NCBI GenBank assembly: GCA_019638025.1 | Contig: JAHBUO010000001.1 | Location: 124,001 to 188,000, forward strand | Origin: Ignavibacteriaceae bacterium | GTDB taxonomy: Bacteria; Bacteroidota; Ignavibacteria; Ignavibacteriales; Ignavibacteriaceae | Direction of reading: 5' to 3' | DNA: 64,000 nucleotides | Shown here: positions 18,534-27,726 of the stretch, one piece after another | Numbering within the stretch: position 1 is the first letter of the stretch | Layout of the letters: each line of letters starts with the position of its first letter | The notes under the pieces: model-generated | Seen by the model: only the letters and a program-made list of their open reading frames with translations | Told to the model about the DNA's origin: nothing | The model's database searches: none | Made by a program: the position numbers and the translations under genes

Positions 18534-18797
18534 ATGACCGATAGCGAAAACACAAAATGTGGACATGCATGCAAAAACTCTTGTGCAATGCTGAATGAAG
18601 CTTTGCGAAAAGAAACTGCATCAGTGCGGTTTTATGAAGGAGTTTTTGATCAATGCCATTCACCTGAGATAAGAAACTTTCTTGGCGATTTAATTGATGA
18701 GCGAAGGGGAAATATTCTTCGTATCATCCAAAAGTTAAACGAAATCCACGCCCGCTCTCAATCAATAGATGGAATGATAGCAAGTTTTACTTCGTAA
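18534..18797 (+). CDS. Small Cys-rich ferritin-like (half-rubrerythrin) protein
   Basis: 87 residues. After CGHACKNSC comes a two-helix hairpin resembling half a rubrerythrin/ferritin fold (LRKETASVRFYEGVFDQC, then IRNFLGDLIDERRGNILRII). The usual iron-ligand ExxH pair in the second helix reads DERRGN, so the diiron site is probably lost. A strong GGGGGG ribosome site precedes the ATG. It lies 34 bases after the gamma subunit and is probably in the same transcript. It may protect or tune the oxygen-sensitive complex; this is inference. Confidence 0.6.
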   Translation: MTDSENTKCGHACKNSCAMLNEALRKETASVRFYEGVFDQCHSPEIRNFLGDLIDERRGNILRIIQKLNEIHARSQSIDGMIASFTS

Positions 18798-22291: not shown

Positions 22292-22330
22292 AAATCCGTC
22301 GATTAACAAAAATCGACGGATTTTTATTTT
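22292..22330 (+). terminator. Strong terminator after the SPFH gene
   Basis: A perfect 13-base stem AAATCCGTCGATT / AATCGACGGATTT (22292-22304 and 22311-22323) with loop AACAAA and a T-rich tail. Confidence 0.93.
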
Positions 22331-22429: not shown

Positions 22430-23527
22430 ATGAAGAATATTATTATAACTACGGTAATAATAATTTTAATCGCTTTTGAAGGATATGGGCTTCCTCGCTT
22501 CAGTTTACTAACCGGTAGTAGTTGTGCTGATTGCCATGTGAGTCCAACCGGAGGTGGAATGCGAACCCAAAGTGGTTGGAACTACGGGAAAAACCAACTA
22601 CAAATGTTTAAATCAGAAAGTGAAAAAGAAATTAGTCCTTATATCGGACAAAATATCAGTCTCGGTATCGATTTCAGAACTCAATACTTAGCAAAGTTTG
22701 ATTCCGCTTCAAAAAAATCTGATTTTCAAAATATGACCGGTGCTGTTTATTTCAATATTGAATCGAGTGACTATCTTCAGTTTTACGGGCACTATGATTT
22801 TTCGAAATCAATATGGAGTGGTTATGCAATTGCAAATATTTTGCCGTTCAACGGTTATGTAAAAGCCGGAGTTTTTAGCCCAAATTTTGGAATTCGTGTA
22901 GATGATCATACCGCTTATACTCGGGGTGGTGATGCAGGGATTTTAACTGCTACACAGGGTTTTATTTATAGTCCCTACTATGTTGAATCGGGAGTTGAAC
23001 TTGGATTTAATTTTACTGATTATCTAAATTTTACTGCAAGCGTCGGAAATCCGACTCAAAGTTTATTTACCAAAGACCCTACATATACAAGCCGAATACA
23101 ACTCTCCCCTTCAATGGGTGAAGTTAATCTTTTAGCCGGTGCTTCATATGCTATGCATCGAAAAGGTTTTCCAGGAAATGTAACTCATGTAAATATGTAT
23201 GGTGGATTTTTAGGATTTAATCTCGCCGATTTTACTTTATTAGCAGAATATGATTTTGGGAAAAATCTTGTAAAAAAAGATTCTCTCTCATCCGCACTTA
23301 TGATTGAAGCATCTTACAAAATTACAAAAGGACTTGATGCGGTTATTCGTTTTGATAGATTCGACTCAAACACATCAGCACAAAAAGATGAAGTTTCACG
23401 TATAATAATTGGTGCTGAATTCTATCCGTATAGTTTTATTGAAGTTCGTCCACAGTATAGAATTAATCTGGAAGAACCGAAAATAGAGAATAATGCATTT
23501 CTTGTTCAGTTTCATTTTTGGTATTAA
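22430..23527 (+). CDS. Single-haem cytochrome fused to a probable outer-membrane barrel (Cyc2-like layout)
   Basis: 365 residues. A signal peptide (1-20) is followed by GLPRFSLLTGSSCADCHVSP with a c-type haem motif C32-A-D-C35-H36, then a Gly/aromatic segment (GWNYGKNQ). From about residue 65 to the end the chain alternates short beta strands and turns and ends in an aromatic residue (FLVQFHFWY), as outer-membrane barrels do. This order, haem just behind the signal peptide then a barrel, is that of fused cytochrome-porins such as Cyc2. The next gene is a TauE/SafE permease. No other haem motif is present. A role in moving electrons across the outer membrane is inference. Confidence 0.65.
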   Translation: MKNIIITTVIIILIAFEGYGLPRFSLLTGSSCADCHVSPTGGGMRTQSGWNYGKNQLQMFKSESEKEISPYIGQNISLGIDFRTQYLAKFDSASKKSDFQNMTGAVYFNIESSDYLQFYGHYDFSKSIWSGYAIANILPFNGYVKAGVFSPNFGIRVDDHTAYTRGGDAGILTATQGFIYSPYYVESGVELGFNFTDYLNFTASVGNPTQSLFTKDPTYTSRIQLSPSMGEVNLLAGASYAMHRKGFPGNVTHVNMYGGFLGFNLADFTLLAEYDFGKNLVKKDSLSSALMIEASYKITKGLDAVIRFDRFDSNTSAQKDEVSRIIIGAEFYPYSFIEVRPQYRINLEEPKIENNAFLVQFHFWY

Positions 23528-23545
23528 TAGTTTTTAGAGAGGGTT

Positions 23546-24319
23546 ATGGATTTAGTAACAATTGCAATTGTATCCTTTTTAGCAGCAGGACTTACACTTT
23601 TTTCCGGTTTTGGATTAGGAACTATTTTGCTTCCTGCTTTCGCTATCTTTTTTTCAGTGGAGATAGCAATTGCTCTAACTGCAATAGTTCATCTATTGAA
23701 TAATTTATTCAAACTCCAGCTGTTTTGGAAAAATATTGATTCAAAGGTTTTAATGAAGTTTGGTGTTCCGGCAATTATTGCTTCATACTTTGGGGCGGTT
23801 TTAATGGTAAATCTATCAGGACTCAAACCAATTTATGCTTATTCAATCGGAGGAAATAATTTCGAAATATTACCGATAAAAGTAGTGATTGGAATTTTGC
23901 TAAATCTTTTTGCCTTGGCAGAAATTTTACCATCAATAAAAGCCCTCTCTTTTAACAAAAAGTATCTACCATTGGGTGGGATATTAAGTGGATTTTTCGG
24001 GGGACTCTCAGGACATCAAGGAGCACTCAGAGCTGCATTTTTATTACGTGCCGGAATGACTAAAGAAGGGTTCATTGCTACCGGTGTTGCTGTTGCTTGT
24101 CTTATTGATACGATTAGACTCTTTAAATATGGGACTGCATCTCTGGCAGATTCAATTAGCAGTAATTATATAATTTTAGTTACAGCAATTATGGCGGCAT
24201 TTGCGGGGTCATTCTTTGGTGCAAGACTTGTAAAGAAAGTTACGATAAACTCGTTTCAAATAACTGTGGCAATAATGTTATTTATTTTTGCAAATTTGAT
24301 GATAGCCGGAATTCTTTAA
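23546..24319 (+). CDS. TauE/SafE (DUF81) family permease
   Basis: 257 residues with about seven to eight hydrophobic helices and the family repeats FLAAGLTLFSGFGLGTILLP near the start and GGILSGFFGGLSGHQGALR in the second half. The family exports or imports sulfite, sulfonates and other small anions. It begins 19 bases after the haem-barrel gene with a GAGAGGG ribosome site, so the two are probably co-transcribed. Substrate unknown. Confidence 0.85.
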   Translation: MDLVTIAIVSFLAAGLTLFSGFGLGTILLPAFAIFFSVEIAIALTAIVHLLNNLFKLQLFWKNIDSKVLMKFGVPAIIASYFGAVLMVNLSGLKPIYAYSIGGNNFEILPIKVVIGILLNLFALAEILPSIKALSFNKKYLPLGGILSGFFGGLSGHQGALRAAFLLRAGMTKEGFIATGVAVACLIDTIRLFKYGTASLADSISSNYIILVTAIMAAFAGSFFGARLVKKVTINSFQITVAIMLFIFANLMIAGIL

Positions 24320-24321
24320 TC

Positions 24322-27300
24322 TTATTTGTCCAACGGCAATTTTTTCATTGACTTTTCAACTGCATCTTTAAAAGCAGCAAGATTAACAGGCTTGCTGAAT
24401 ATGTATTCAATTCCTGCATCTGAGTAGGCGAGTTCTTCGCTTTTACCTAAGTCACCGCTTAAAACTATTACCGGCGGTTTCCCTTTTATGTTTGATGCTT
24501 TTAAACGATTAACCAATTCCAAGCCGTTTACTTTTGGCATTGTGTGGTCAGTAATTACAAGAGCCGGAGCCGCAGATTCAATTTTTTCAAGAGCTTCTTC
24601 ACCGTTTGTTGCAGTTATTACATTATACTCTGATGTAATAGAACGGATTAGTTTTGAGTAGAGAATTCTATCTGTATTACTATCGTCAACAAGTAAAATA
24701 CTTGCAGAAGCTTTTGGAAGTGTAAATTTAAATTCGGTTCCTTTTCTAAATTCACTTTCGACCCAGATTTTACCGCCGTGTTTTTCGATGATTTCTTTTA
24801 CAAGAGAAAGTCCCAGCCCGGTACCTTTTTCGCCGGCAGTTCCTTCGGAAGTAAATTTTGAGTCAACACTGAAAATCTTACTAATATTATCTTTTGCAAT
24901 TCCGACACCATTATCTTTCACTGAAATCTGAATAAATCTCGCTTCTTCAGATTGTACTGCATGAATAGAAATTGTTCCGCCCCTCTCAGTAAATTTTAAC
25001 GCATTCGAAACAAGATTGTTAAAAACTTGAATCAATAAATTTTGGTCAACAAAAAGATAAAGTTCTGAAGTTATTGTATCGATAAGTGAAATATTTTTTT
25101 GAATAGCAAAACCTGATAAAGACGAAAATGATTTTTGAATAACCCCTTTTATATCAGTTTTTTCAGGCTCAAACTTAATTCTTCCGGTTTGGAGGCGTGT
25201 CCAATCCAATAGAGAATTTACAAGCGAAAGCATAGTTTTACTTGAGTCTTGAATAAATGTAATATATTGTCGTCGCTCATCATTAGTTAAATCATCATCT
25301 TGAAGAAGTAAATCAGTAAAACCTAAAATTGAACTGAACGGAGTGCGTAAATCGTGAGAAATAATCGAGATAAATCGATCTTTTGTTTCATTTAACTTTT
25401 GAAGATTCTCTGTTGAGACTTTTAATTCTTCCTCAGCCTTTTTTTGAAGCGATATATCACTTACAAGTCCGAAAATTTTAGTTACTTTACCTGTATGATC
25501 TCGCACTAAGTTTAACTTATTTCGAACCCATACAATATTGCCATGCTTATTTACTATTCTGAAGGCAATTTCATCAGCTTGTTTGTAGTAGTTTTCGAAA
25601 AGCTTTTTTAATGCCGATTTTACTTTGCTGTAATCATCGGGATAAATTATTTTGAAGAATAACCTGTTATCGCTTAGAAAATCGGCTTGAGAATAACCTG
25701 TGATTTTTTCAACAGAGGCAGTATAAAACATTGGACGGAGGCTTCCGTTTAATCTTTCGGCAGTCCAGAAAAAATCATCAATGTTTTCAGTTATGCTTCG
25801 ATATCTTGCCTCTGATTCTTTTATGGCTTGTTGAACCCTTTTCCGTTCGGTAATATCACGCGCAATAATTACGAAGAAGACTTTTTCGTTAAAAAGAAAA
25901 TAAGTTACTGAGACTTCAATATGAAAATGACTACCATCTTTTCGTGTTCCTAAAAACTCGTAACGATTTGGGGCATCTTCACCCATTATTCTTGCTTCTG
26001 AATATTTACTAATTCTTTCGCGGTCTTCTTCGGCAACAACTTCTAATGAACTTTTCCCGATGAGTTCGGTTCCACTGTCGTAACCAAAAATGTTTGCAAA
26101 AGAATTATTTGCGAGTATAAATTCCCCCTCAAGCTCCATTGCAATTCCATCGTTTGAGGCATCAAAGATAGAGCGCATTAACAGTAGTTCTTGTTCGGTA
26201 TTTTTCCTTAATGTTATATCCTTAAAAATTCCGTTGAAAAACTTTATGTTATTATCGGCATCATAAACGATTGAAAAATTAGCGTTGAGATATAACTTTT
26301 CCCCTTGAGTTGTAAAAACCGGCAGTTCGAAAGTAAGAGATTTCGCTTCAATTAAATTTCGGATACTGAATTGCCGTTGCTCTAAAAATTCCGGGTCAAA
26401 AAAATCGGTTATCTTTACTCGTTTAATTTCACTTTTTGAAATTTTTAAAGTATCGACAAAAGCCGGATTGGTGTAAAGTAATTTTCCGTTTGAATCAAAA
26501 TTACAAATCAAATCGGAAGCACTATGAACAATAGCTCTAAACCTCTCTTCAGAAAATTTAAGTTCTTGTTCAATTTTTTCGCTTTCTGTAATGTCATTAA
26601 CAAGAATTACATAGGCTTCGTTGTTATCGTCAAATGTAACTTTGGAAAAATGGAAATCGCCTACACGCTTCTCATCCTTTTTATTGAAGAAGGAAATTTT
26701 TCTTCTTATTGATTTAGTCTTCTGTAAACGATTAAAAACATCTTCTAAATCAGTAAGTTCAGTAATTCTTAAAACCTTAAATAAATCTTTTGAGAAAACT
26801 TGACTACGTGTATAACCGCAGAGTTTATCGGCAGACTTATTCCAAAAAATAATCTTCCCCGATTTATCAACCGTAATTATGGCATCGGTAGAAGCTTCTG
26901 TAATTACTTGATAATGAGAAAGCTCGGTGATTCCCCGTTTTAAATTTTCGATTTCTGAAATTTGAGATGTAACATTTCGAAAAGTAGTAACAATAATTGC
27001 GATTTTCTTTTTATCTGAAAATATTGGAAAAGAAGATACTTCGAAATGTGCGGCGGTATCGTTAGTAGAAATAACAATGTTACAAATAGACTCTTTTCGT
27101 GTTTTTACACAATTCAGAAAATTAGATTTTATTAACTCGGAATTATTTTCATCAAAAATGGTTTGGAGATTTCCATCTTGTTTATTGCCTGACAAAATAA
27201 TTGATGACTTACTTTTCCCCGAGTTGAAAATAACATTCCCTTTTAAATCCAATATCAATAGTAAATCAAAAGCCTCATAGAGAATGGCTTCGTAATTATT

Positions 27301-27726
27301 TCTAATTTCGGAAATGTCAACACCGCTAACGCCTGAGCCTATTCTTACATCTTCCAAAATTATTATTCCCCCCTCAAAAACATCGTCTTTAAATATTGGA
27401 GAGACTTTAATTATCGAATTAATAAATCCGCCATCAATAGTTTTTCGGCTTCGAACTTCAGACTCTAGACTCTCCCCTTCACTTAAAGATTTAATATTTT
27501 CCGAAAGATTAAAACTTTCGATAACATTATTGGAGAGAAGATTTGTACCGATGAGCGATTTCTCACCATTAGTTGAGATAAGTCCAAATTGATTAGTGTT
27601 TCCGTTAGCGAATGTAACAATTCCATTTTTGTCGAAGGTCAATAGACCTATCGGAAGTAAATCGAGGATTTCGACTTTTTGTTCGGAAGACCAAAGCATC
27701 GGTGCAATATCTTGATCAGAGGGCAT
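24322..27726 (-). CDS. Multi-PAS hybrid sensor histidine kinase
   Basis: 1134 residues with no membrane segment, so probably cytoplasmic. About six PAS domains in a row (near 20-130, 145-265, 270-385, 390-510, 515-630, 640-765); several are closed by DITE/DIT-type PAC ends. Then come HisKA with phospho-acceptor His791 (IISHDLRTPFSSI), HATPase_c with NNLVSNALKF, KDNGVGI and GEKGTGLGLSL, and a C-terminal receiver domain with Asp1060 (VITDHTMPKVNG) and the FSKP Lys loop. It is a single gene convergent with the permease (3 bases apart) and divergent from phoH. The signal sensed is not evident. Confidence 0.93.
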   Translation of the reverse strand: MPSDQDIAPMLWSSEQKVEILDLLPIGLLTFDKNGIVTFANGNTNQFGLISTNGEKSLIGTNLLSNNVIESFNLSENIKSLSEGESLESEVRSRKTIDGGFINSIIKVSPIFKDDVFEGGIIILEDVRIGSGVSGVDISEIRNNYEAILYEAFDLLLILDLKGNVIFNSGKSKSSIILSGNKQDGNLQTIFDENNSELIKSNFLNCVKTRKESICNIVISTNDTAAHFEVSSFPIFSDKKKIAIIVTTFRNVTSQISEIENLKRGITELSHYQVITEASTDAIITVDKSGKIIFWNKSADKLCGYTRSQVFSKDLFKVLRITELTDLEDVFNRLQKTKSIRRKISFFNKKDEKRVGDFHFSKVTFDDNNEAYVILVNDITESEKIEQELKFSEERFRAIVHSASDLICNFDSNGKLLYTNPAFVDTLKISKSEIKRVKITDFFDPEFLEQRQFSIRNLIEAKSLTFELPVFTTQGEKLYLNANFSIVYDADNNIKFFNGIFKDITLRKNTEQELLLMRSIFDASNDGIAMELEGEFILANNSFANIFGYDSGTELIGKSSLEVVAEEDRERISKYSEARIMGEDAPNRYEFLGTRKDGSHFHIEVSVTYFLFNEKVFFVIIARDITERKRVQQAIKESEARYRSITENIDDFFWTAERLNGSLRPMFYTASVEKITGYSQADFLSDNRLFFKIIYPDDYSKVKSALKKLFENYYKQADEIAFRIVNKHGNIVWVRNKLNLVRDHTGKVTKIFGLVSDISLQKKAEEELKVSTENLQKLNETKDRFISIISHDLRTPFSSILGFTDLLLQDDDLTNDERRQYITFIQDSSKTMLSLVNSLLDWTRLQTGRIKFEPEKTDIKGVIQKSFSSLSGFAIQKNISLIDTITSELYLFVDQNLLIQVFNNLVSNALKFTERGGTISIHAVQSEEARFIQISVKDNGVGIAKDNISKIFSVDSKFTSEGTAGEKGTGLGLSLVKEIIEKHGGKIWVESEFRKGTEFKFTLPKASASILLVDDSNTDRILYSKLIRSITSEYNVITATNGEEALEKIESAAPALVITDHTMPKVNGLELVNRLKASNIKGKPPVIVLSGDLGKSEELAYSDAGIEYIFSKPVNLAAFKDAVEKSMKKLPLDK

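Follow-up and report, generated by a model that had tools for sequence, protein, structure and literature searches.

Cyc2 is a 16-strand barrel like that of OprO/OprP with a cytochrome plugging its periplasmic opening; most Cyc2 proteins have at least 400 residues, and 365 are still accepted (Keffer et al. 2021, PMC8406198). PMC8478452 reports cluster 3 Cyc2 as well as iron genes that FeGenie detects in Ignavibacteriales. The MtrAB, PioAB and MtoAB systems also combine a porin with a cytochrome into an electron conduit but use a 26-strand barrel and a separate decahaem cytochrome, whereas the phosphate porins OprO and OprP have the 16-strand barrel without a haem module. Here, we compare with these systems a gene pair from an Ignavibacteriaceae bacterium, found in a stretch of 64,000 nucleotides, positions 124001 to 188000 of contig C1, that was analysed as a whole (the window). 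A sequence-only reading had likened the first protein of the pair to Cyc2 in layout while suggesting that it might belong to a separate family of electron conduits. That interpretation is partly supported: the Cyc2 comparison is right on architecture and wrong on membership.

Organization of the Locus

Positions 22430 to 24319 of the window hold two codirectional open reading frames, 22430–23527 (365 aa) and 23546–24319 (257 aa). The features discussed below are as follows.

22292..22323, + strand: terminator-like hairpin (13 pairs, T-rich tail), 3' of an SPFH gene
22430..23527, + strand: cytochrome-porin gene, 365 aa, single CxxCH, predicted 16-strand outer-membrane barrel
22430..22489, + strand: signal peptide, residues 1–20, ending just before 22490 (by inspection; homologues all begin likewise)
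22490..22654, + strand: N-terminal haem module, residues 21–75 (LPRFSLLTGSSCADCHVSPTGGGMR...), model helices at 22–28, 32–35 and 47–55
22523..22537, + strand: haem-binding motif CADCH (C32, C35, H36), residues 32–36, invariant among the family
22655..23524, + strand: barrel, residues 76–365, 16 strands (AlphaFold2 model and PDB matches)
22877..22984, + strand: long loop, residues 150–185, between strands 5 and 6 (model), carrying DDHTAYTRGGD with H160 (71 of 74 homologues)
23513..23515, + strand: H362, last strand, near the periplasmic end, lumen-facing in the model, 73 of 74 homologues, candidate distal haem ligand
23546..24319, + strand: TauE/SafE-type permease gene, starting 18 bp after the cytochrome-porin gene, an adjacency seen in the host genus only

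The 365-aa protein begins with MKNIIITTVIIILIAFEGYG, continues with LPRFSLLTGSSCADCHVSPTGGGMR... and a barrel-like remainder, and ends in QFHFWY. CADCH, its sole CxxCH, had been placed directly after a signal peptide, and it does follow, at residues 32–36, an N terminus that is signal-peptide-like by inspection. Pfam gave porin matches below threshold only and no match to Temptin_C (PF24784) at E values up to 1, and searches with the protein against NCBIfam and, as a single sequence, against the PDB gave no match. The second frame scored 66.1 bits with the TauE/SafE family (PF01925), for which the cut-off is 32.6. The permease proposed as the neighbor is thus real, but the adjacency was seen only in the host genus (G000 and G001), homologues elsewhere being placed differently. 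As the hairpin at 22292–22323 lies between the SPFH gene upstream and the pair, the two paired genes are probably one transcription unit; terminator-like hairpin sites in the region numbered 2, with 1.6 expected by chance.

Beside the cytochrome-porin gene we found no multihaem outer-membrane cytochrome and no known iron gene. The host genome (3.7 Mb in 169 contigs, 86% complete) contains cytochrome c assembly genes of CcmF/CcmC type. Two further genes of the window were recorded: a PAS-rich hybrid histidine kinase (1134 aa, 24322–27726), convergent with the permease gene and also beside the pair in G001, and, after pyruvate ferredoxin oxidoreductase-type genes, a small Cys/His-containing protein of 87 aa (18534–18797) with a weak match to DUF2383.

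Predicted Structure and Candidate Haem Ligand

We modeled the mature protein using AlphaFold2 and an alignment of 74 homologues. The model (pLDDT 92.6, pTM 0.89), which superseded one built from 30 close homologues that was poor at the N terminus, has three short N-terminal helices, one of them over CxxCH, and then exactly 16 barrel strands, in agreement with the roughly 300 barrel residues expected from the sequence. The highest TM-scores on the query among the PDB matches listed were those of OprO (4rjw, 0.68) and OprP (2o4v, 0.66), with which the protein shares 11% identity. The model and these matches rule out a fold other than a barrel, and the loop between strands 5 and 6 (36 residues) takes the position of the porin constriction loop. 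The PioB/MtrB family, put forward as a further comparison, does not fit, with 16 strands found instead of 26 and no decahaem cytochrome gene at the locus.

The facing of barrel residues was assigned by strand alternation, with heights counted from the periplasmic end. Inward residues were far better conserved than outward ones, the entropies being 1.1–1.2 and 2.0–2.1 bits, respectively, at heights 3–9 (P value of 7e-6 over heights 0–9), and the lumen holds a conserved belt of charged residues. Judged from the alignment, such inward-facing conservation in the lower half of the barrel is as would be expected if something docks there. H362, three residues from the C terminus and facing the lumen, was kept in 73 of the 74 homologues and is likely to be the second haem ligand. 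The conserved lumen and this near-invariant histidine near the periplasmic end point away from a haem placed outside the pore. M102 and H160 were each kept in 71 of 74; in three Gammaproteobacteria, both are replaced by acidic residues, probably in one event.

Signature and Breadth of the Family

The homologues span Ignavibacteria, Nitrospirae, Gammaproteobacteria and Myxococcales, and C32, C35, H36, P39, G41, G42 and G49 are among the residues invariant in all 74. Because the first six of these are invariant across several phyla, CADCH is not a chance occurrence. The family signature is CxxCHxNP[TS]GGxxR, and the HVSPTGGGMR stretch singled out earlier as a distinct flank of CADCH is the region of this signature.

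Matches were found in 54 of the 97 related genomes searched, with a mean column identity of 57% among 30 homologues. A scan of named genomes gave 77 loci, mostly in Ignavibacteria, which also contributed the nearest named relatives (MAGs), and further in Nitrospirae, Gammaproteobacteria, Myxococcales and 'delta' MAGs, with short matches to the N-terminal part in Oligoflexales and Bdellovibrio; as every locus comes from a MAG, isolated outliers could reflect mis-binning. An entry titled Candidatus Hodarchaeum mangrovi (L083) has an Ignavibacteria-type copy among Ignavibacteria-type neighbors and is probably a mis-binned contig. A profile made from the 74 rows matched 158 of the 197 genomes sampled from the class, weak and partial matches included. 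We fetched 20 of the profile-found stretches, 19 of them in the right frame: all 19 had the N-terminal CxxCH and, after it, some version of the flank, and in nearly all of them the histidine three residues from the C terminus was kept. One match (G164:C15:176002-176805) was reported within a reading frame of 24,413 aa, which may be masked sequence. Members from Myxococcales and 'delta' genomes (L129, L131–L133, L135, L136 and L138) have a second CxxCH upstream of the shared one, an arrangement that suits electron transfer better than a structural role of the haem.

Relation to Cyc2

In architecture, the family resembles Cyc2 closely. Both have a signal peptide (in the window protein, by inspection), a single N-terminal CxxCH and then a 16-strand barrel, predicted in our case, with OprO/OprP as relatives, and in both P-x-F-[AS] precedes CxxCH at the same spacing. 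The length is borderline, exactly 365 aa in the window protein and less in some homologues. The claim that the protein is shorter than known Cyc2 proteins therefore holds for most of them but not for the accepted lower limit, nor by much for the Cyc2-motif barrels of Ignavibacteria, which have 381–403 aa. The two sequence motifs that we tested are missing. Upstream of CxxCH, AxPxFAR[QK][TY] is absent, the window protein reading GLPRFSLLT and no aligned family row containing FAR; downstream, PxL is absent from every aligned row, with NP[TS]GG there instead. We rejected Cyc2 membership on the absence of both motifs, which together with the signature bears out the proposal of a separate family. 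Further differences are the C-terminal histidine, near-invariant in the window family and absent in the 10 Cyc2 proteins compared, small monohaem cytochrome partners in some lineages, and the di-haem forms.

Profiles were compared with two reference sets, one of Cyc2 proteins obtained by motif search (10 genomes) and one of Cyc2-motif barrels from the same order as the host (L160–L189). The latter barrels (IPAFARKYN...CKTCHSPFPKL) share with the window family the bacterial order, the size class and the succession of haem motif and barrel, but differ in these motifs and in their profile match to Cyc2; they were matched in 57 of 94 relatives and were absent from G000 and G001. A barrel of this type (L048:6151-7362) adjoins a four-haem cytochrome gene near the window family's homologue. 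With full profiles, hhalign gave the window family and Cyc2 a probability of 87.5% (E value 3.5e-6), the window family and the Ignavibacteria set only 27%, and Cyc2 and the Ignavibacteria set 98.3%.

We then judged scores for the N-terminal module against column-permuted controls. The window family scored 32.4 with pooled Cyc2 (80 controls, at most 29.4), 30.9 with the Cyc2-only set, where one permuted control reached 46.4, and 27.6 with the Ignavibacteria set, whose controls reached 30.8. As a positive control, Cyc2 with the Ignavibacteria set scored 69.8 (controls at most 27.9). Profile similarity to Cyc2 is thus present with full profiles but weak against permuted controls. On these scores, common descent of the two haem modules is no more than possible.

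These results bear on the possibility that the protein is a genuine but strongly diverged Cyc2 and, specifically, an oxidase of Fe(II). The shared order of parts, the OprO/OprP-like barrel, the spacing of P-x-F-[AS], the full-profile match and the pooled module score would all fit such an origin. The motifs are nevertheless absent from every row, a permuted control outscores the real comparison once only Cyc2 is used, and barrels from the same order that do carry the Cyc2 motif match Cyc2 far better than the window family does, and match the window family poorly. We therefore regard a divergent Cyc2 as unlikely. The family is separate from Cyc2, widespread and apparently undescribed, a literature search with few subscription papers within its reach having found no description of it. 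The support for haem-plugged barrels that form a family of their own is good, and we hold this with high confidence.

Neighboring Genes and Partner Cytochromes

Proteins with CxxCH were enriched among close codirectional neighbors of the family (18 of 84 vs. 15 of 546 others, P value of 6e-9, which overstates independence as the species are related). In Melioribacteraceae, the gene directly upstream encodes a T9SS-tailed, temptin-like (PF24784) monohaem protein, and the cultured Melioribacter roseus P3M-2 has both the barrel gene and the exported monohaem gene directly upstream of it. PSCyt1-type proteins lie beside the distant members L111, L126 and L127 (distant Ignavibacteria and Gammaproteobacteria), and a related one lies beside L113. 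In Myxococcales, the neighbors include a multihaem protein (L135) and one with a haem motif that matches no family confidently (L133). In most Ignavibacteriaceae, the cytochrome-porin gene stands alone in variable contexts.

The temptin-like secreted proteins share with the window family the loop CxxCHxNPxGGGxRNxFG but lack a barrel and have DSDGDG repeats and a sorting tail. The resemblance of the window protein to them is limited to the CxxCHxNPxGGxxRN loop, and the N-terminal module scored 58.1 with the exported monohaem proteins (controls at most 28.9). All ten T9SS-tailed loci checked (L046:11184-11912, L150–L159) had CxxCH. We rejected the secreted cytochrome as an obligate partner: PF24784 matches occur in 31 of 94 related genomes, many of them without the barrel, and several genomes with the barrel have none. 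In the host genome, a strict pattern found no motif-type partner.

Proposed Function

We lean toward reading the family as single-haem electron conduits with a Cyc2-like architecture, the electron transfer being inferred from this architecture, the partner cytochromes and the di-haem relatives. The product would be an outer-membrane cytochrome-porin built on an OprO/OprP-type 16-strand barrel, with its N-terminal c-type haem module lodged in the periplasmic half or docked against it. C32, C35 and H36 would hold the haem, with H362 in the last strand as a probable further ligand, and this one haem would bridge the periplasm and the lumen of the barrel. Through the pore, it may trade electrons with a soluble donor or acceptor or, where the lineage has one, with a small cytochrome on the cell surface, and periplasmic carriers would join it to the respiratory chain. 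Several substrates are possible, iron being one of them. Points against a conduit are that no multihaem outer-membrane cytochrome or known iron gene was found beside the gene, that the strict pattern found no partner in the host genome, that the gene is solitary in most Ignavibacteriaceae, that the secreted cytochrome occurs in genomes without the barrel, and that a single haem is too little to cross the outer membrane by itself.

The solitary gene, the single haem and the charged belt of the lumen would also suit a sensor or catalyst, for oxygen, NO, sulfide or peroxide, that gates the porin or works inside it with no electron flow across the membrane; in the host genus, the convergent hybrid kinase could be added to these. 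That kinase link is, however, confined to the host genus, and the recurrent cytochrome neighbors and di-haem versions fit electron transfer better, and we consider a sensor or catalyst improbable, ranking it after a divergent Cyc2. The permease would call for an ordinary solute porin serving that permease (for sulfite or sulfonates), with an incidental haem motif, as the pair is kept in G001, lies on the same strand with an 18 bp gap and probably forms its own unit after the hairpin. With TauE adjacency in two genomes of one genus and a haem motif invariant across phyla where the neighbor is a different gene, such a porin is very improbable; the permease is weak evidence on function, and we rejected it as a functional partner. 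Least probable of all is a CxxCH that binds metal or forms a disulfide, as the likeness of the haem loop to part of the PF24784 domain might suggest (its namesake temptin is not known to be a cytochrome), since both cysteines and the histidine are invariant, the host has Ccm genes and the temptin-like loci themselves carry CxxCH.

Beyond the single-haem conduit that we favor, the family might represent a second, independently recognizable class of haem-plugged conduit in several phyla, with a ligand histidine in the last strand, exported or lipid-anchored monohaem cytochromes receiving the electrons, and a two-haem version in Myxococcales. We offer this fuller picture tentatively and think it rather doubtful in its entirety. 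The presence of the barrel gene and its exported partner in cultured M. roseus P3M-2 makes the question open to experiment. Cyc2 serves as the marker for Fe(II) oxidation by way of a small fused conduit. With a sister architecture in 158 of the 197 genomes sampled from the class, matches of every strength counted, single-haem barrels would be more common than the Cyc2 motif shows, and genome surveys would be missing such barrels or misfiling them as iron oxidases.
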